From: Bacteroidales bacterium
Lineage (GTDB): Bacteria; Bacteroidota; Bacteroidia; Bacteroidales; P3
Length of the DNA: 52,594 nt
Assembly (NCBI GenBank): GCA_017480785.1
Contig: JAFURZ010000001.1
Span: 1-52,594 of the forward strand
Direction of reading: 5' to 3'
In this document: one piece after another, positions 5,217 to 45,268 of the stretch
How the letters are laid out: every line of letters starts with the position of its first letter
Position numbering within the stretch: position 1 is the stretch's first letter
The notes under the pieces: generated by a model
What the model was told of the DNA's origin: nothing
Database searches by the model: none
The model's input: the letters and a program-made list of their open reading frames with translations, nothing else
Program-made: the position numbers and the translations under genes

Positions 5217-8200
5217 CACTTCAGAATCATCTTGCGCATCTGCCGCTGTCCGTCGACTTCGATGCCGTAGTAGTAGACACCGGCGGCATAGGCTTCCATG
5301 TCGACCGTGATGAGGTGGCTACCGGCCGAATAGACGCGTTCGGCGCTATGGACTATGTGGCCCATGGCATCCATGACGAAGAAGCGCACGCGGGCGGCAT
5401 TAGGCAGGGTGAAGGGGATGGTGGTCTGCTGCGAGAAGGGATTGGGGTAGTTCTGCTCCAGAACCAGGCTCTCGCCATTGACAGAAGGCACACCCTCGAA
5501 ATAGTTGATGACGTCGACGATGGAGGTCTGGTCGTTGACCTGGTTGTGGTCGCCGGAGACCTCTCTAATGTAACCCGTGCCGATATACGTGCGGGTGGGC
5601 GACTTGGGGATGCGGCGGTCGAGCTCGAGGCGGAGTATTTCGCCCGGGACGACCTGACGCGTGACGGTGGTCTTGTTGGAGTCGCTTCCGTTGATGACGG
5701 CACGCATACGCAACTGTGCACGGTCGCCGGTGGCGATGTTGCCGATATTGCGTAACTCGAGGAAGACGCGGCAGTCGTTGTTGGCATTCTCCTCGACCAG
5801 GACACGCATCACCTCGATGTCGACAAACTGGTCGGCAAAGACTCCTGTGGTATCGTTCGACGAGTCGTTATCGCCATCGACATGCACGAAGGCATTGACA
5901 ATTCTGTAGCCCGAAGAACGCCAAGGCAGGCTGGTGGAGAAGCGATAGTAGCCGGTCTGAAGTGCCGCCAACGGGAGATAACGGCTGTAGGTCTCGCGGA
6001 CCATATTGGTGGTGTCGTTATCAATCCAGTAACCCACCTCGAAGTTATTGACACCACGGGCGCCGACATTGTCGATGACCAGTCCGATAAACGTCTCGGT
6101 ATGGTCGGAGGTGTCGACAATAATCGCCGAGGCCGCTATATCGGTAATCGACATGATGCCTTCGACATGCTTGCTGACAGTGTCGTTATAGATATAGTTA
6201 TTCGTGGGGCTCTTGATGATGCCCGTGATGTTCATCATACCCATCGGGGCAGTGATACGGCGATGGAACGTGTAGTTGTAGTATTCCAGCGACTCCAACG
6301 GCCGTCCGAGGAGTTCCTCGAAGTCCAGCGTCTCATCAACGCGGGTGATGCCGTTGACAATGTAGCTGGCCGTGGCGGTATAGATGGGGTCGACACCGAA
6401 ATTGCGGATACGCAGGGTGACCCTCACAGACGTGTCGCCTGCCACCACATGGTCGAGCGGAGAGAGAATCTCCTCGGCACTAATATCCTTGTCGAGCGGC
6501 ATGAGGGTGAACATCTGAGTCAACGTGTCGTTGTCGCGGTAGTTGTCGTCGGAGCGGGTGGTGAATGCCGTGATGTGGAATTCCTCGGGATAGTCGCTGG
6601 TGATGATGAAGGGAGAAGTGCACAGGAACGTGTCGGTGGCGCCAGGGGCGATGTAGCAGGTCACGTCGGTGTATTTGGCCAGATAGGTTCCGTGATGGGT
6701 ATAGCCGATACGGACACTCTTCAGCGTATCCCAGCCGTAGTTCATCACTACCACTTCGGGATAGATTGTCTGACCATACTTGGGAGCTTCGGGCTTGGTG
6801 AATCCCACCACACCAGCGTCAATCTTGGCCTGTGCACGACCAACGTTGAAGTCGTCCACGGCACATCCTTCACCGAACGACGAGGTGGTACTGGCGCCCA
6901 TCGGGGTGGTATAGACGATACGGAACTGCGTGTTTTCATTGAGGTCGTTCGTCATGCGCAACGAGGTGAAGCTGATGTCGTAGAGGCCATAAGTCTCACT
7001 GTTGGGCGAGGTGCCAGAGAAGACAGCATTCTCCATATCGGTGTACCAGTTGGTCGTCGAGTCGTGGTACAGTTTGACCCATTTCCGCTCGAAGTTGTAG
7101 TACTCGACATGCACGGTGCTGTTGTTTGTCAAGTTGCGGCGCAGACGGAGGGATATTGTGTCGGGTCGCACCACAGAGATGTTAATGATGGGGCTGTAGA
7201 GATAGCTCACACTGCCGCGTTTGCCGGTCACAATAGTACTGTTCAAGTCGGTGACCCAGGCATTCTCCCCAGAATAAGTGGTGTCGAGGCGAGACTTGTT
7301 GGGCATGCCACGACGCCAGAAGTTCTGGGTGTAGGACGAGTAGCTTCGCGGCGCGTACCAGTTGTCTATGCCTTCAAAGTCGTCAAACATAATTGGACGC
7401 ATGACAACCGGCCGGTGATACTCATATTCCAACCTATTGTTTGTGGAGTCGACGTCACCGGGCATGTTGTGCCAGATGGCGAGCGACGACGTTCTGAGGG
7501 GGAATACGTGGGCAGGCAGATCGACCACCGTACTTGTGCCAGCATCGAGAACTCCAGTCCACTGGATGACGCCTGACGCCGAGGTATCAATGGTGTCGCC
7601 GACAAAACGATAGTGAATGTCAACATTGTTGATGGCTGTTCTGCCACGGTTAGCCATGCGGAACTTAACCACTCTGGGAGCCTCGTCGCGGATGATATAG
7701 TCGCGCGGTGAGACAATCTGGGTGATAGCCAAATCACTTTCAGGAGCTTCATCGTCGACAAAGAGAAGGAAGTCGATGATATGGCCCTCTGTCGATTCGG
7801 ATTCATAACCCATCACCTTGACTCGCATCCTCATGTAGCCTAACGAAGCGGTGGAAGGAATAGTAACCAGACCTGAGAGGACCGAATCACTATAGAACAC
7901 TACATTATTCAGGACAGCCTCCGCACTTCCGGTACCAGGGGTAAACGACCCACTTCGGTCGAAGTCGATGTGCACATTGCCACGGCAACGGAACGGCAAC
8001 TCGGTAGCATCAAGAGGAGTCACCTGAATAAGGATGGAGTCGGAGGTGCCACGCGTCACATGAAGCACAGGGTAGTCGGGGTTGGAATAGTCTGCCAGAT
8101 TGGTGTAGGAGCGGTTCAACGGCGGTATATCCAAGTCAATGCCATTGAAGGAAACTCGCGTGATATCAAATCTGGTGTTCTCAGAGCTGGGGATATTTCC

Positions 8201-38451: not shown

Positions 38452-38485
38452 AAATCTTTCCACTTTCAGTTTTCCACTTTCACCT
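38405..38485. repeat. 7-nt-period repeats at the aspS-menA junction
   Basis: Two tracts: TTGAAAR units (38405-38439) at the menA N-terminus, and an AGTGGAA/AACTGAA-type tract on the minus strand (38457-38485) forming the last codons of aspS (IKVKVEN). Confidence 0.8.
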
Positions 38486-40223
38486 TAATGCAGAGCTCAT
38501 CCAGCTGTTCCTGGCTGATGGGCGAGGGCGACTGGCTCATCACGTCGCGGCCCGAGTTGTTCTTCGGGAAGGCGATGAAGTCGCGAATGCTGTCGGCGCC
38601 GGCGAAGATGGAGCACAGGCGGTCGAAGCCGAAGGCCAGACCGGCATGTGGCGGCGCACCGTAGGTGAAGGCGTCCATGAGGAAGCCGAACTGCGCGGCA
38701 GCGCTCTCGTCGGTGAAGCCCAGGGTGTGGAACATCTTGTTCTGCAGCACGCGGTCGTGGATACGGATGGAACCGCCACCCACCTCGGTGCCGTTCATCA
38801 CGATGTCGTAGGCGTTGGCGCGGATGTCGCCCCAGCGGCTGGGGTCGTCCAGCAGGGCCTCGTCCTCGGGCTTGGGGGCCGTGAAGGGGTGGTGCATGGC
38901 GTAGTAGCGCTGCGTCTCGTCGTCCCACTCCAGCAGCGGGAAGTCGATGACCCAGAGGGGTGCGAACTTCTGCGGGTCGCGCAGACCGAGCTGCTGGCCC
39001 ATCTCGAGGCGCAGGGCACAGAGCTGGGTGCGCGTCTTCATGGCAGGGCCGCAGAGCAGGAGCATCAGGTCGCCGGGATTGGCACCCATCTTGTCGGCAA
39101 CGGCCTTCAGCGCCTCGGCGTCGTAGAACTTATCCACCGAGCTCTTGAACGTACCGTCGGCGTTGTATTTGATATAGACCATGCCGCCGGCACCCACCTG
39201 CGGCCGCTTGACGAAGTCGGTCAGCGCGTCGAGCTGCTTGCGGGTGTACTCGGCACAGCCGGGGGCCACGATGCCCACTACCAGCTCGCTGCCGTCGAAG
39301 AGGCCGAAACCGTGGCCTTTCACCACGTCGGTCACCTCCTTGAACTCCATGCCGAAGCGGATATCGGGCTTATCGGAGCCGTAGAGGCGCATGGCGTCGT
39401 GCCAGGTCATGCGGGGGAACTTGTCGAACTCGATGCCCTTCATCTCCTTGAAGAGATGCTTGGCCAGGCCCTCGAACATATTGAGTACGTCCTCCTGATG
39501 CACGAACGACATCTCGCAGTCAATCTGCGTGAACTCCGGCTGACGGTCGGCGCGCAGGTCCTCGTCGCGGAAGCAACGCACAATCTGGAAGTAGCGGTCC
39601 ATGCCGGCCACCATCAGCAGCTGCTTGTACTGCTGCGGACTCTGCGGCAGGGCGTAGAACTCGCCGGGATTCATGCGGCTGGGCACCACGAAGTCGCGCG
39701 CTCCCTCGGGGGTGCTCTTGATGAGCATGGGGGTCTCTATCTCGAGGAAATCGCGGTCGGAGAGGTAGTTGCGCACCAGCATGGCCATACGGTGGCGCAT
39801 CTCGAGGTTGCGGCGCACCGGGTTGCGGCGGATGTCAAGGTAGCGGTAGCGCATGCGCAGGTCGTCGCCGCCATCGCTCTGGTCCTCGATGGTGAAGGGG
39901 GGCGTCTTGGCCTCGTTGAGGACGGTCAGCTCAGCCACCTCAATCTCAATCTCTCCCGTAGGTATCTTGGTGTTCTTCGAGCTGCGCTCGATGACCGAGC
40001 CGGTCACCTGGATGACGTATTCGCGGCCCAGCCGGCGGGCCTGCTCACAGAGGGGGGCATTGGTTTCCATGTTGAAAGCCAACTGCGTGATGCCGTAGCG
40101 GTCGCGAAGGTCGACGAAGGTCATGCCGCCCAGGTCGCGCGAACGTTGCACCCATCCGGCGAGGGTCACTGTCTGTCCCACATTGGCAAGCCTCAGCTCG
40201 CCACAAGTATTTGTCCTATACAT
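38466..40223 (-). CDS. aspS: Aspartyl-tRNA synthetase
   Basis: A 585-residue class II synthetase of bacterial type. OB-fold anticodon domain ([23 protein letters not shown]), motif 2 [21 protein letters not shown] insertion domain and motif 3 [15 protein letters not shown]. The last residues come from a 7-nt-period repeat. menA follows directly; aspS-menA-menG look like one transcript from 40258-40265. Confidence 0.97.
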
Positions 40224-40257
40224 AATTAATAATATTATCTCATAATAATACAGCCTG

Positions 40258-40265
40258 CAAAGTTA
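40258..40265 (-). promoter_or_regulatory. -7 promoter box of aspS-menA-menG
   Basis: Minus strand TAACTTTG, 34 nt before the ATG; no exact -33 TTTG found. Confidence 0.6.
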
Positions 40266-40350
40266 CAAAAAATGTTTCACTTGACCGCACACTTGGTGAA
40301 AACAAACCGAAAAAAAGTGCTCCGAGACGCCAACCAAAGGCCAGATTCGG

Positions 40351-40418
40351 ACCATCGACTTACCAAGAACTTACCATCGACTTACCAAGGACTTACCACC
40401 GACTACCACGGTGGTAGT
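40351..40418. repeat. Array of 11-nt units ending in a palindrome
   Basis: Units ACCATCGACTT, ACCAAGAACTT, ACCATCGACTT, ACCAAGGACTT, ACCACCGACTA stand head to tail from 40351 to 40405, followed by the palindrome ACTACCAC-G-GTGGTAGT (about 40402-40418). The units alternate in positions 5-8. It lies between the SirTM gene end and the aspS promoter. Confidence 0.85.
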
Positions 40419-40495
40419 ACAAAAGGTGCATAAAGACCTAATGGTCAACGATATGCAAATGATGAGCAATCGAGCATTATGGAACAACCCCTATA

Positions 40496-41344
40496 TTACA
40501 GTCGCTCAAGGAGTTCCCCGACGTCCTCGGTGAAGGCCATGAAGCGGCCGTCGAGGCCTTCGAGCGACGCGTCGGGATGGTCGCGGTTGAAGCGCACCAA
40601 AGCGGTCTGCGGGAAATTGAGCGCCATGTGCTCGAAGGGGAAGCGGATGATGCCGGGCGTGTTGAAGCCGATGCCGAACTCCAGCAACAGCAGACGGTCC
40701 TCGTGGTGGTCGCGCACAAACCGGTGGTAGCGGTCGGCCTGCTGGTGCCAGTGCTCGTCCTCGACGAAGGTGTCGTCACAGCGCAGGTTGGGCGCCAGCA
40801 GTTCGTGGGTCTTGGGGTGCAGGGGGATGAGGCGGCTGGGGATTCGGCAGTCCTTGGTCTCGGCCATGGCCTCGTGCACCCACTCCTCGCAATAATACAG
40901 CTCCTTGTTGTCACCGCTGCGGCTCTGCAGGTAAGCGTAGTCGCCCTGCGTGGCGAAGATGCGGTCGCGGTCGAAGCCCGAGAGCTCGAACTGTCCGTCG
41001 GTGTTGGTGGTGACGACGAACCACTCCTTGCCCTCGACCACCCGCAGCAGGCGGCGGTAGAGCGCGGTGCCACCCGTGCGGAAGCGCGAGAACCAGATGT
41101 GGCGCGCCCAGTAGGCCCACTTCTCCTCCTCGGTGGCGAAGGGATAGAAGCTGGAGGTGTAGAGGTCGGTGATGCCGTAGCGCTCAATCCACGGGGCAAA
41201 CTCGCGGCGGAAGTCCTCGCCGGCATAGTCCAAGCCTGCGGCGGTACTCAGACCGCTACCGGCACCGATGAGGATGGCGTCGGCGTCGGCAATCAGCTTG
41301 CGCAGGGCGTCAATCCTTGCCGAGAAGTTCTCTGTAGATGTCAT
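40496..41344 (-). CDS. Class M sirtuin (SirTM), protein ADP-ribosyltransferase
   Basis: 282 residues with NAD-binding GAGSGLSTAAGLDYAGEDF, the family block YTSSFYPFATEEEKWAYWARHI, the TTNTDGQF motif and ATQGDYAY, in which Gln stands where deacetylating sirtuins have the catalytic His, and RCDDTFVEDEHWHQQADRY. These are SirTM hallmarks; characterised members ADP-ribosylate a lipoylated GcvH-like carrier. The usual zinc-ribbon cysteines are missing (IPLHPKTHELLAPNLR). Start ATG 41344, overlapping the macrodomain gene by 35 nt. No GcvH-L or lipoate ligase gene is near. Last gene of the operon. Confidence 0.88.
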   Translation of the reverse strand: MTSTENFSARIDALRKLIADADAILIGAGSGLSTAAGLDYAGEDFRREFAPWIERYGITDLYTSSFYPFATEEEKWAYWARHIWFSRFRTGGTALYRRLLRVVEGKEWFVVTTNTDGQFELSGFDRDRIFATQGDYAYLQSRSGDNKELYYCEEWVHEAMAETKDCRIPSRLIPLHPKTHELLAPNLRCDDTFVEDEHWHQQADRYHRFVRDHHEDRLLLLEFGIGFNTPGIIRFPFEHMALNFPQTALVRFNRDHPDASLEGLDGRFMAFTEDVGELLERL

Positions 41345-42095
41345 AGTCGATGTCTTTGAATACATTGAACACCACGCGTATCCTGGCCTCTCTACACACC
41401 TCGACTGCCACCTTGGCCGCTTCGCGGTTGGGGTAGCCGAAGACGCCGGTAGAGATGCAGCAGAAGGCAATGCTCCGGCAGCCGCCAGCTTCGGCCAGGC
41501 CGAGACAGTTGCGGTAGCAGTCGGCCAGCTGTTCGCGCTGCTTGGGTGTGGGGCGCCCGTCCTGCACGATGGGCCCGACGGTGTGGATGACGTAGCGGCA
41601 CGGCAGGTTGTAGGCCTTGGTGATGAGGGCTTCGCTGGTGAATGCCTCGCGGTAAGTCACGCCGTCCATCGTGTATTCGGGATGTACGGGCGGACACTCG
41701 GCACCGCTCATGGCCTCAGCACATTCGGCTCTCAGCTGTATGCCGGCGGCACTGTGGATGCAGTTGTCGATGCAGGCGTGCAGCGGGTGCCAGCACCCCA
41801 TCATCTGGCTGTTGGCGGCGTTGACGATGGCGTCGACCTTGAGTCGGGTGATGTCGCCCTGCCAGAGCATGACGTCGGGGTCAAGCTCCACTATGCCCTT
41901 TTCCTGCAGTTGCAGCTGCAGTTCGCGGTCCTGCGCGGCGAGGAACTCGTCGCTGGCAGGCCATGGCGGCCGTGTGTTCATCAGGGCGCGCATCAGGCGC
42001 TGCTTCTCCTTGAGGGTGCCTGGCATGGCGGTGTGCACCTCCTGCTCGCGCATCAGCACGCCGAGTATGTAGTCCAGGTTTTCTATACGGTTCAT
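41310..42095 (-). CDS. Zinc-dependent macrodomain protein (ADP-ribosyl hydrolase)
   Basis: 261 residues. After an N-terminal helical part the macrodomain begins at VMLWQGDITRLKVDAIVNAANSQM. GCWHPLHACIDN gives the Cys-His-Cys zinc ligands of the Zn-macro class, HSAAGIQLRAEC follows, and YNLPCRYVIHTVGPI and CCISTGVFGYPNREAA complete the fold. Family members paired with SirTM remove its ADP-ribose mark. ATG at 42095 overlaps the upstream TGA as ATGA; longer frames are spurious. The sequence encodes the likely eraser to the SirTM writer. Confidence 0.92.
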   Translation of the reverse strand: MNRIENLDYILGVLMREQEVHTAMPGTLKEKQRLMRALMNTRPPWPASDEFLAAQDRELQLQLQEKGIVELDPDVMLWQGDITRLKVDAIVNAANSQMMGCWHPLHACIDNCIHSAAGIQLRAECAEAMSGAECPPVHPEYTMDGVTYREAFTSEALITKAYNLPCRYVIHTVGPIVQDGRPTPKQREQLADCYRNCLGLAEAGGCRSIAFCCISTGVFGYPNREAAKVAVEVCREARIRVVFNVFKDIDYDIYRELLGKD

Positions 42096-43108
42096 TGCGG
42101 TCGGGATGTTTTTCCGGTGTCGGAATCCGCCCCGGTGCCGTGCTGCAGGCGCAGCAGCAGCGGCAGGTGGTCGCTCAGGCCACCCTCGTAGCGGGGGCCC
42201 TGATAGGTGCGCCGGGGGCGCTGACCCGGCTGGGTGGCTTCGTCGGTGAGCAGGTGGTCGAACTTCAGCAGTTTGAGTTTCCGCACCTGCCAGCGGTCGT
42301 CGGCCAGGAGGAACACCTGGTCGATGTAGCTCCAAAGGCCTTGGTACTTGTGGCTGCCCCAGTCGCGCGGCAGACGCTGGGTGAGCAGGCGTATGCCGTC
42401 AGGGCTGACGCTGTCGGTGCCGAAGCCCATGCCGTCGGTGAGGGCTGCCTCGTCGGCGGTGCTGTTCATGTCGCCCATGGCGATGACGGCGGCTTCGGGA
42501 TGGCGCGCATGGAGGTCGAGCATGAGACGCCGCAGGGTGCGGGCTATCTCCAGCCGGCGGGCGTCGGCCTCGTCGCCTCCCCTCTTCGAGGGCCAGTGGT
42601 TGAGCAGCAGGCACACGCTGTCGCCCGCCGCGGTGAGCCCTTCGACGACAAGGATGTCGCGCGTGAAAAAGTCGTTGGCGCTGTCGCTGACACACACACG
42701 ACGCGAGGTGGTGACGGTGAAGCGGTCGGTGCGGTAGATGAGGGCCACGTCGATGCCACGCCGGTCGGGCGAGTCGTAGTGCACATAGCGGTAAGGCACC
42801 TGTGCCAAGGGGGTACCCTGGCAGAGGCTGCGCAGCACGTAGTTGTTCTCCACCTCGGCCAAGCCCACCACATCGGGCAGGTCCATCATGGTGAGGGTCT
42901 TGTGTATGCCCTCCAGCTTGGCCCACATCTTGCGCTGCGTCCAGTGCAGGCCACCCTGCGGGGTGAACTCGTCATCGTTGGTCTTCGGGTCGTCGCGGGT
43001 GTCAAAGAGGTTCTCCACGTTCCACCAGGCGGCGGTGAACGTGGAGGACTCTTGCGATTGCGACGGGATGGTTACCATCATCATCAGTATGACGGCCAGC
43101 CGTCTCAC
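42092..43108 (-). CDS. Secreted endonuclease/exonuclease/phosphatase (EEP) family protein
   Basis: 338 residues with signal peptide MRRLAVILMMMVTIPSQSQ. EEP-fold motifs: WWNVENLFDTRDDP, VVGLAEVENNYVL, YDSPDRRGIDVALIYR, NHWPSKRGG, AVIAMGDMNSTADEAAL and LSDHLPLLLRL, covering the metal and His-Asp residues. Family members cut nucleic acids or phosphoesters. Start GTG at 43108 overlaps the previous stop as GTGA and gives a good signal peptide; an upstream extension is a shadow. It stands between the EF-hand membrane protein and the macrodomain. Being exported, it probably does not act on the same substrate as the ADP-ribosylation pair. Confidence 0.85.
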   Translation of the reverse strand: MRRLAVILMMMVTIPSQSQESSTFTAAWWNVENLFDTRDDPKTNDDEFTPQGGLHWTQRKMWAKLEGIHKTLTMMDLPDVVGLAEVENNYVLRSLCQGTPLAQVPYRYVHYDSPDRRGIDVALIYRTDRFTVTTSRRVCVSDSANDFFTRDILVVEGLTAAGDSVCLLLNHWPSKRGGDEADARRLEIARTLRRLMLDLHARHPEAAVIAMGDMNSTADEAALTDGMGFGTDSVSPDGIRLLTQRLPRDWGSHKYQGLWSYIDQVFLLADDRWQVRKLKLLKFDHLLTDEATQPGQRPRRTYQGPRYEGGLSDHLPLLLRLQHGTGADSDTGKTSRPQ

Positions 43109-45156
43109 TCGGCGGCAGGCGTTTCTTCGGCCACGGCCTCGACGGCAGCGGGGGCCTCTTCGACAACTACGGGCTCCTCGACCACCTCGGCCACCGGTTG
43201 TTTGACGGGCTTGGGCTGCCACACCCAGCGGTGGGCGGCCAACCTGAATATCAGAACGAAGGCCACGGCCAGTATGAGCAGCCAGCAGAGAATGCGGCGC
43301 CAGAGGGGCGTCTTCTTGTCGGCAAAGGGGTCGGCGGCCACCACCTTGGGATACTTGGCCATCGAGGTGAGGGTCTTGCCGAAGGTGGTGTTCACCTTCA
43401 CATCGCTGTTGATGGCCCATCCGTTGGCGTTGAGTACGGGCCCGAGGTTGCGCTTGCGCAGCTTGAGCCATGCCAGCAGCATCGAGGGGCCACTGATGAG
43501 GATGACGACGGCTGCCACCAGGAGGATGACGTTGTACCACTTGGCCGTGATGAATCCGCCCAGCATGCCCAAGGCGGCACCGATGGCGCCGAAGGCCAGG
43601 CCGATGGCGGCGAAGATACCGGCGAACTTGGCTATGTCGAACGGGGCGGCCTTCTTGTCGGCGGCGGCCGGAGCGGCGCCTTCGGCCGGGGCGGCGGTCA
43701 GGTTGGTGCTGGCCGTGTCGGCCTTGGCGGTCATCTCGTCGAACTGTTTGCTCTCCTTCTCGCTGGCACTCTTGGTTATCTTGTCGGTCACCCAGTTGCC
43801 GAACTTGCGGTAGGGGCTCCAGAAGGCCTGGCGCACGCTGATGGGGTTGTCGACAATCTTGGTGACGGTAGCGTCCCAGTCCTGCCCGCTGCGGTCATAG
43901 AAGATGGCGTTCTTGCCTTCATGCAGGCCGCCGACCTCGCCGTCGGTGAGGGCGGCCACGATGTCCATCTGGGCTCCGCCGCTCTTGGCCACGCAATGGC
44001 AGTAGATGAGGTACATGCCGCTCTTGCCGGCCGTGGCGGTGCTCTTGCCCATGTCGCTCACCTTGACGCAGAGGTCGCAGCAGCGCTGGTCGATATACAG
44101 CTTGCCGGCCTGGAAGACAGCCATCGACTTGTCGTCGCGGCGGTAGAAATCCTTGAACACAACATAGTTGTGCAGCAGGCGCACATAGTCGCGGCAGTAG
44201 CGCACGAGGCGTTCCACCGGCTCGAAGGCGGCGGCATGCTCGGCCACCTGCGCAGCGATAGCCTCGTTCATGGCGGTCACGCCGGCGGCTTTCCAAGCGG
44301 TGTAGGCGTCGACCTTGCCCACCACCTCGTTCCACTCCTCCTCACTCAGCGACTCCTTGCCCTGCCATTCGGGCACGGCGGCCACGAGGGTACCCATGGC
44401 ACCCTGCCAGGCGGGGTTGATGCCCGAGGCGAGGGGCAGCAGGCCCTCCTTGCTGGGACGCGCCAGGGGGTAGGTGCCAATCTCGTCGGCACTGGCCGAG
44501 AGGTCGTTGCCACTGATGGCGGCAATCTTGTCGACCTGCACGTCGAGCACCGGCGCGGCATCCTCGTCAAACTGCACCAGTCGGCAGCGCATGAACCAGT
44601 CGGCCACTTTGGCGCGCACGGCACCCACGGCGGCCTCGACGGCATCGCTGGTGTCGCCGTAGGGCGGCTCGTAGGGCTCGTCGGCGGCCTGGTAGCCTTC
44701 CTTGCACTTCTCCTCGTAGGTGGCCATATAGTCCATCACGTCTTTCAGCGCTATCGACTGCCTGTCGAGACCCAGGCTGCCGAGGATGAGACGGGCGGCG
44801 GCGAGCACCTCCTGCCCTTCAGGCGTGGTGTCGCAGATTTCGCTGAAGTCGACCGTGTCGGAACCGTCGAAGAGGTAGTCCATGTGGACCAGCACCTGCT
44901 TGAGCCACTGCGAGGCAGCCACAATCTCGTGCACCCGCAGCTTGCCGTCCTTGTCGGCGTCGAGGAGCGACAGCGTGCGCTCGTCGAACTCCAACCCCGT
45001 CACGGGGCAGCTGAGCACCGTCCAGAGCTTCTGGTCCAGCTCGTCCAGATGGGCGATGTCGTCGCCGTTTTCGATGTTCACGCGGGTGACGCCACCCACC
45101 GTGCTGAATTTCCACTCGTAACCATGCTTCGAGAGCAGTTTGTCAATCTTTGCCAT
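43105..45156 (-). CDS. EF-hand-containing membrane protein of unknown function
   Basis: 683 residues without signal peptide. A canonical EF-hand loop DADKDGKLRVHE at residues 66-77 (Asp 1,3,5 and Glu 12). A long, mostly helical middle follows, with CCDLC and YCHC cysteine clusters near residues 362 and 390. Hydrophobic segments lie at about 520-590 (AGIFAAIGLAFGAIGAALGM, WYNVILLVAAVVILISGP) and near 650-665 (LCWLLILAVAFVLIFRLAA), and a Glu/Val/Ala-rich tail ends the protein. I do not recognise the family. First gene of the four-gene operon. Confidence 0.8.
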   Translation of the reverse strand: MAKIDKLLSKHGYEWKFSTVGGVTRVNIENGDDIAHLDELDQKLWTVLSCPVTGLEFDERTLSLLDADKDGKLRVHEIVAASQWLKQVLVHMDYLFDGSDTVDFSEICDTTPEGQEVLAAARLILGSLGLDRQSIALKDVMDYMATYEEKCKEGYQAADEPYEPPYGDTSDAVEAAVGAVRAKVADWFMRCRLVQFDEDAAPVLDVQVDKIAAISGNDLSASADEIGTYPLARPSKEGLLPLASGINPAWQGAMGTLVAAVPEWQGKESLSEEEWNEVVGKVDAYTAWKAAGVTAMNEAIAAQVAEHAAAFEPVERLVRYCRDYVRLLHNYVVFKDFYRRDDKSMAVFQAGKLYIDQRCCDLCVKVSDMGKSTATAGKSGMYLIYCHCVAKSGGAQMDIVAALTDGEVGGLHEGKNAIFYDRSGQDWDATVTKIVDNPISVRQAFWSPYRKFGNWVTDKITKSASEKESKQFDEMTAKADTASTNLTAAPAEGAAPAAADKKAAPFDIAKFAGIFAAIGLAFGAIGAALGMLGGFITAKWYNVILLVAAVVILISGPSMLLAWLKLRKRNLGPVLNANGWAINSDVKVNTTFGKTLTSMAKYPKVVAADPFADKKTPLWRRILCWLLILAVAFVLIFRLAAHRWVWQPKPVKQPVAEVVEEPVVVEEAPAAVEAVAEETPAAE

Positions 45157-45236: not shown

Positions 45237-45268
45237 CAAATATAAGAAACTATTTCGAGAGTACCAAA
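45237..45268 (-). promoter_or_regulatory. Promoter of the EF-hand/EEP/macrodomain/SirTM operon
   Basis: Minus strand TTTG (45268-45265), 20-nt spacer, TATATTTG (45244-45237), about 80 nt before the first ATG. Confidence 0.8.

Follow-up and report, generated by a model that had tools for sequence, protein, structure and literature searches.

A SirTM/Zn-macrodomain pair with probable bystander neighbors in a Bacteroidales genome and a redox-related gene context in its relatives

The DNA analyzed here, hereafter the window, is a stretch of 52,594 nt from the genome of a gut bacterium of the Bacteroidales (GenBank assembly GCA_017480785.1, contig JAFURZ010000001.1, positions 1 to 52,594). On its minus strand, it carries adjacent genes for a class M sirtuin (SirTM), a predicted ADP-ribosyltransferase (writer), and for a Zn-macrodomain protein, a predicted (ADP-ribosyl)hydrolase (eraser). 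The two quite probably form a self-contained pair of the lone-pair type, the relatives of which mostly lie in a redox/electrophile gene cluster and the target of which would be a redox-related protein encoded elsewhere; the genes in front of the pair, for an EF-hand-type protein and a protein of the endonuclease/exonuclease/phosphatase (EEP) family, would then be bystanders.

Results

Catalytic motifs and class of the pair

The macrodomain protein (positions 41310..42095, minus strand) matched PF01661 and the NCBIfam model NF003163, "protein-ADP-ribose hydrolase" (score, 276.7 bits; cut-off, 272), and its best solved structure was 8rsi (E 1e-60). The alignment to 8rsi began at residue 1 and so took in the N-terminal extension that marks the Zn-Macro (MacroD-type) class. 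The SirTM (40496..41344, minus strand) matched no Pfam model at E 0.01. Its best solved structure was 5a3a, "SIR2 family protein" (E 1.7e-41), which we take to be the streptococcal SirTM of S. pyogenes; 8rsn, a chain that includes a macrodomain as well, was matched in its second half (E 2e-24). Its ATG start (41344) has a counterpart in most relatives.

Eighty named SirTM loci were compared, the best 80 of 292 relatives in named GTDB genomes, a sample in which near relatives are favored. The hosts were mostly ruminant-gut Bacteroidales, together with Segatella albensis, Prevotella micans, and Prevotella illustrans.

The catalytic features used for comparison are named in passages of Rack et al. 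2015 (PMC4518038) and Ariza et al. 2024 (PMC11490716). The window SirTM holds TTNTD, TQGDY, GIGFNTP, and an Arg aligned with Arg192, and the macrodomain holds C-x4-H-x-C and NAAN, which bears out an earlier sequence-only reading of the window as containing a pair with intact NAD, Gln, and Cys-His-Cys features. The Gln that replaces the catalytic His lies in TQGDY; among 80 SirTM sequences (79 loci plus the window), QGDY was found in 80 and [TA]QGDY in 77. The class motif GVGx[NT]TP, GIGFNTP in the window, occurred as G[IV]Gx[NT]TP in 80/80 sequences. By the 5a3a alignment, the equivalents of Asn118 and Arg192 are N114 and R188, which were invariant across 17 sequences. All 75 macrodomains (74 loci plus the window) showed the Cx(4)HxC loop and N[AS][AS]N. 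Linkage to a Zn-macrodomain, which is also used to define class M, was observed for the window SirTM; a macrodomain lay within 3 kb of SirTM in 76 of the 80 loci, and the other four genomes carry one elsewhere. On these motifs, the two proteins are predicted to be a writer and an eraser that should attach and remove ADP-ribose.

Zinc-ribbon cysteines, a general sirtuin feature that does not define the class, were absent from the small domain of the window SirTM. In none of the 80 Bacteroidales sequences did the 60 residues following QGDY contain a C-x(2-4)-C, whereas two Cys pairs follow the QG motif in 5a3a and in the SirTMs of Treponema, Enterococcus, and Roseburia. Loss of activity is not implied, because the catalytic motifs are kept.

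Gene order in related genomes

The pair ends a series of four minus-strand genes, in the order 683-residue EF-hand-type protein, EEP protein, Zn-macrodomain, and SirTM, with successive overlaps of 4, 4, and 35 nt, exactly as had been read from the sequence. The same reading had made the EF-hand and EEP genes part of the system, unless related genomes showed the order to be due to chance, and this is what the related genomes show. The set comprised 61 genomes, the window's own and 60 relatives (37 genomes of one genus and 24 others of the order); the stretches G008:C47 and G000:C19 were left out of the analysis. SirTM matches occurred in 19/61, two of which were distant sirtuins (G046, 27% identity, and G052, 26%; by eye they belong to another Sir2 type) and were excluded from SirTM counts, as was a second, partial match in G027; true SirTM was thus present in 17 of the 37 genus members. 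The EF-hand protein was found in 29/37 same-genus genomes (own included) and in none of the 24 others. Both genes occurred together in 11 same-genus genomes, and in all 10 besides the window's they were on separate contigs. Their presence showed no positive association (both, SirTM only, EF-hand only, neither: 11/6/18/2; odds ratio 0.2, Fisher P = 0.11).

EF-hand neighborhoods were taken from 20 of the 28 relatives with the gene. EEP was located within 3 kb in 15/20 and aspS in 10/20, and none of the 20 contained SirTM or a macrodomain. In the 16 SirTM loci of the same genus, no EF-hand, EEP, or aspS gene was found; over the whole of the 80 SirTM loci, EF-hand was found in none, aspS in none, and EEP in one (36% identity, 5.6 kb off). 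The four-gene arrangement was seen in the window genome only. EEP and aspS were both in view in 9/20 EF-hand loci, with 82 to 5530 bp between aligned parts, and aspS directly followed the EF-hand gene, without EEP, in three further loci. EF-hand, EEP, and aspS therefore form a recurrent, non-universal order, which presumably is older than that of the window, where the pair sits between EEP and aspS. The interval between EEP and aspS (window 40224-42092; L073, L078, L080, L081, and L087) is a variable site that contains different genes or short repeats.

Neighborhood of the pair in Bacteroidales

Within 3 kb of SirTM, the most frequent partners besides the macrodomain were an HxlR-type regulator (PF01638; 61 of 80 loci), a cupin (PF07883; 42), a PPOX-like flavoprotein (PF01243; 35, or 39 with wider queries), and an MBL-like lipoprotein (28; named by eye, with no Pfam or PDB match). 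Hits were concentrated near SirTM: at distances of ≤2 kb vs. 6-8 kb, they numbered 53 vs. 4 for HxlR, 39 vs. 0 for PPOX, 37 vs. 0 for cupin, and 29 vs. 0 for MBL-like genes. As a control, none of these four partners was found within 5 kb in the 20 EF-hand loci. Unbiased clustering of open reading frames within 5 kb of SirTM ranked the same partners at the top; rarer neighbors at this distance were flavodoxin (8 loci), an NAD(P)H-binding protein (7), aldo/keto reductase (7), and zinc-type dehydrogenase (4). The present neighbors of the window pair look accidental because the pair of its relatives mostly sits among redox/stress-sensing genes; the EF-hand and EEP proteins probably have no part in its function.

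The order of the partners was variable, with 38 distinct strings across the 80 loci, some owing to contig ends. Where a same-strand HxlR gene ended no more than 140 bp from the start of the macrodomain gene, the two overlapped (24/24 cases). Of 15 PPOX genes adjacent to SirTM, 9 began exactly where the SirTM hit ended, on its final base. CPIRN was present in 44 of the 59 members of the HxlR cluster. In the 16 same-genus loci, the macrodomain adjoined SirTM in 15; in L036, PPOX, MBL-like, and cupin genes separated the two by 2.1 kb. Within the genus, SirTM was present together with a close HxlR (15/2/2/18, P = 1.7e-6) and with cupin (13/4/2/18, P = 5e-5), at identity cut-offs of 66% and 80% that were chosen after the lists were seen; counting any HxlR hit, the figures were 17/0/6/14.

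In L096, L143, L146, and L161, SirTM directly followed HxlR with no macrodomain beside it. These genomes contain a macrodomain elsewhere (L181-L184), with no SirTM within approximately 4 kb, so the eraser gene moves and is not lost. These loci therefore provide no example of an eraser-free writer. The macrodomain next to SirTM in L142 was matched in two separate segments (6711-7461) and may be a frameshifted eraser.

The window genome and the history of the pair

None of the HxlR, cupin, PPOX, or MBL-like genes was located within 3 kb of the window pair, the neighbors of which are EF-hand, EEP, and aspS. Cupin had no match in the window genome, nor was PPOX found there by protein or PF01243 (PNPOx_N) search, for which the control was positive in 10/14 genomes. 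The only related HxlR is 55% identical and lies on another contig (C1), next to a quinone-reductase-like gene (by eye). The window pair is thus kin of the pair of the HxlR/cupin/PPOX/MBL-like module and not a member cluster. The sequence-only reading had also stated that neither a GcvH-L nor a lipoate ligase gene adjoins the pair; this was confirmed, the one GcvH gene (C13) and the one LplA-family gene (C1) found in the 92%-complete genome lying on other contigs. Around the HxlR gene (L173, G000:C1), a cluster resembling NADH/ferredoxin-type hydrogenase subunits was noted by eye.

The module of G001 is flanked by dusB and an exonuclease gene (both named by eye). G022 retains dusB, cupin, HxlR, and the exonuclease without macrodomain, SirTM, or PPOX, and in the window genome dusB and the exonuclease gene are only 16 bp apart, with nothing between them. 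G014 contains cupin, HxlR, and a 38-residue macrodomain remnant (L171 6221-6334), apparently a decayed copy of the module. Parts of the module thus come and go piecemeal. This fits a relocation of the pair in the window genome, which may instead have acquired the pair anew from a relative.

The window macrodomain and SirTM had different nearest relatives. A 17-residue macrodomain insert was common to the window and 6 of 74 loci (L092, L099, L126, L145, L148, and L151), which belong to two different SirTM clades. In quick trees of the two proteins (40 rows, including 39 of the 74 loci; long branches and open forks), this pattern would only suggest an exchange of members between pairs, or differing histories of the two genes.

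The pair in other phyla and on mobile elements

A tblastn search of plasmids with the window SirTM returned 26 records, of which the first seven by rank (H1 to H7) were examined. SirTM had a macrodomain beside it in six of the seven; H7 (Paenibacillus), which carries another sirtuin type with no macrodomain annotated beside it, was excluded from the counts. The order in Treponema saccharophilum was NAD(P)H-binding protein, PPOX, Rrf2, SirTM, and macrodomain, then aldo/keto reductase and flavodoxin. Enterococcus casseliflavus showed Rrf2, an NmrA-like reductase, macrodomain, SirTM, and PPOX, then an HxlR gene. In Roseburia, a PPOX-Fe-S protein preceded macrodomain and SirTM, with HxlR and aldo/keto reductase farther away. 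Subdoligranulum showed HxlR, a weak PPOX match (27%), SirTM, and macrodomain, and Niallia Rrf2, an NAD(P)H-binding protein, SirTM, and macrodomain, with no PPOX. Of the genes searched, Streptomyces contained the pair alone. PPOX with HxlR or Rrf2 beside the pair was therefore found in Treponema, Enterococcus, and Roseburia and, more weakly, in Subdoligranulum (Bacillota and Spirochaetota).

An anti-phage defense label was rejected, as 0/4 window proteins matched PADLOC-DB at E 0.01, and so was phage carriage, for which a single unannotated record of 50,697 gave a 29.5% match.

Other features of the window

The 683-residue protein (43105..45156, minus strand) matched no Pfam or NCBIfam model. 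It contains a single EF-hand-like loop, DADKDGKLRVHE, recognizable in 20/20 relatives examined; the membrane part of the EF-hand membrane protein originally proposed consists of C-terminal hydrophobic stretches seen by eye. The EEP gene (42092..43108, minus strand) starts with GTG and encodes a PF19580 protein (Pfam profile search, E 3.8e-72) with a signal-like N-terminus (by eye). The consensus promoter proposed for the four genes was upheld in part: a sigma-70-like match exists 5′ of the EF-hand gene (45239..45267, minus strand, read from 45267), but it agrees at only 9/12 positions, 13 kb of sequence contain 14 matches of this kind against 3.4 expected, and it is only presumed to drive all four genes. 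Downstream of the pair, an intergenic stretch with short GGTAAGTC-like repeats (40224..40495; by eye) would be the downstream edge of the insertion. It is followed by aspS (38466..40223, minus strand), assigned by family match and by the loci of relatives. G+C content was even across 40500-45000.

Discussion

We propose that SirTM and the Zn-macrodomain would act together in reversible protein ADP-ribosylation. In relatives, the genes around the pair mostly form a redox/electrophile-response cluster, encoding an HxlR-type regulator with an N-terminal Cys, a cupin, a PPOX-like flavoprotein, an MBL-like lipoprotein, and sometimes NAD(P)H-binding reductases. Passages of PMC11490716 and PMC4518038 connect oxidative stress with SirTM systems, and PMC7835342 reports that HxlR/DUF24 regulators sense electrophiles or oxidants through a conserved Cys. 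During stress from oxidants or electrophiles, the balance between the two enzymes may shift the ADP-ribose state of a redox-related protein, which in the window genome would be encoded away from the pair. There, the pair lies behind the EF-hand and EEP genes and presumably is translated by coupling to EEP.

Several observations weigh against this proposal. The window genome keeps the pair with no detectable PPOX or cupin, so these partners are dispensable for it. PPOX and HxlR were both absent within 3 kb in 7/80 SirTM loci, and two same-genus genomes (G014 and G022) carry cupin and HxlR without SirTM. The family is patchy, SirTM having been found in 1 of 395 genomes in a phylum-wide draw, the window's own. 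The P values of the co-presence tests are inflated because related genomes are not independent. No transposase family was found among the 8 neighboring proteins in a family scan (target-site duplications were not searched for), and a chimeric join or missed genes may be present, the window genome being an incomplete draft, although the even G+C content across 40500-45000 speaks against a join.

Three other explanations were weighed against the proposal that the pair is self-contained. The idea from which the analysis started, a functional operon of four genes with the EF-hand membrane protein, or a nucleotide or RNA linked to EEP, as the substrate of SirTM, is in keeping with the serial overlaps on a single strand and with the absence of GcvH-L nearby. 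These parts of the operon interpretation stand, as does the writer/eraser assignment; membership of the EF-hand and EEP genes does not, and the explanation as a whole is very improbable, given that the arrangement is confined to one genome, that the 20 EF-hand loci of relatives lack the pair, and that the presence of SirTM and that of the EF-hand gene are not positively associated. Modification of this genome's GcvH, or of some other lipoylated protein, is improbable as well, although to a lesser degree. One GcvH and one LplA-family gene were found in the genome, and the characterized system depends on lipoyl (a passage of PMC4518038), but both genes are on contigs other than that of the pair, 0/80 SirTM loci matched GcvH or LplA at E 0.1 (the queries being the window genome's own proteins), and the published Zn-Macros of pairs and fusions failed, according to a passage of PMC11490716, to demodify GcvH-L.

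A PPOX-like flavoprotein as target, the operon analogue of GcvH-L, is unlikely but deserves more weight than either. The gene stands beside the pair in three phyla, in about half of the Bacteroidales loci (39/80), and in 4/6 plasmid loci with SirTM and macrodomain (two of these matched weakly, at 27% and 29%, and Pfam confirmed the latter), and its start often falls on the last base of the SirTM hit. It is missing within 3 kb in 41/80 loci, some on short contigs. In the window genome itself, PPOX is not the target, since no PPOX gene was detectable there; as a general target it would be one among several at best.

The self-contained pair most resembles the lone SirTM/Zn-Macro pairs of Enterococcus faecalis and Treponema pedis, which, according to passages of PMC11490716, have been published with adjacent writer and eraser, no GcvH-L or LplA, and targets not known. 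It differs from them in lying behind unrelated genes and in a writer that, like its 79 Bacteroidales relatives, lacks the zinc-ribbon cysteines (the E. faecalis and T. pedis writers were outside the ribbon comparison). The extended SirTM operon, described in part of Rack et al. 2015 (PMC4518038) as GcvH-L, LplA2, SirTM, Zn-Macro, OYE, and LLM, shares a homologous writer and eraser with the window and a redox gene context with the relatives of the window pair. GcvH-L and LplA2 genes, however, are absent from the window, and the relatives have instead HxlR, cupin, PPOX, and MBL-like genes, none of which adjoins the window pair. HxlR/DUF24 thiol-sensor regulators found with oxidoreductases are comparable in that the relatives' N-terminal-Cys HxlR is next to redox genes; unlike in those systems, it is tied to an ADP-ribosylation pair, and the window genome has only its 55%-identical HxlR, on another contig. 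A redox neighborhood of lone pairs (HxlR, PPOX) was not found in the open-licence literature searched, supplements being outside its scope, which is weak evidence of absence; "pyridoxamine" does not occur in the main text of PMC11490716 or PMC4518038, nor "HxlR" in that of PMC11490716.

More tentatively, and with the odds rather against it, the loci may represent a second, undescribed SirTM redox module across Bacteroidota, Bacillota, and Spirochaetota, in which sensors of the HxlR or Rrf2 type are combined with PPOX-like flavoproteins and with reductases that bind NAD(P)H. Reversible ADP-ribosylation would switch a flavin- or thiol-dependent detoxification protein, the ribbon would have been dropped in Bacteroidales writers, and one or both members of the pair could move to a new site and continue to act on a target encoded in trans.

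As an operon with a calcium protein, the arrangement in the window is ordinary, and it illustrates that present-day gene neighbors can mislead; as a lead to the targets of lone pairs, it is moderately interesting. Ribbon-free writers, if active, would show that the zinc ribbon is dispensable for class M sirtuins, and the redox neighborhood in three phyla narrows the question of what lone pairs modify, and what induces them, to a few candidates.

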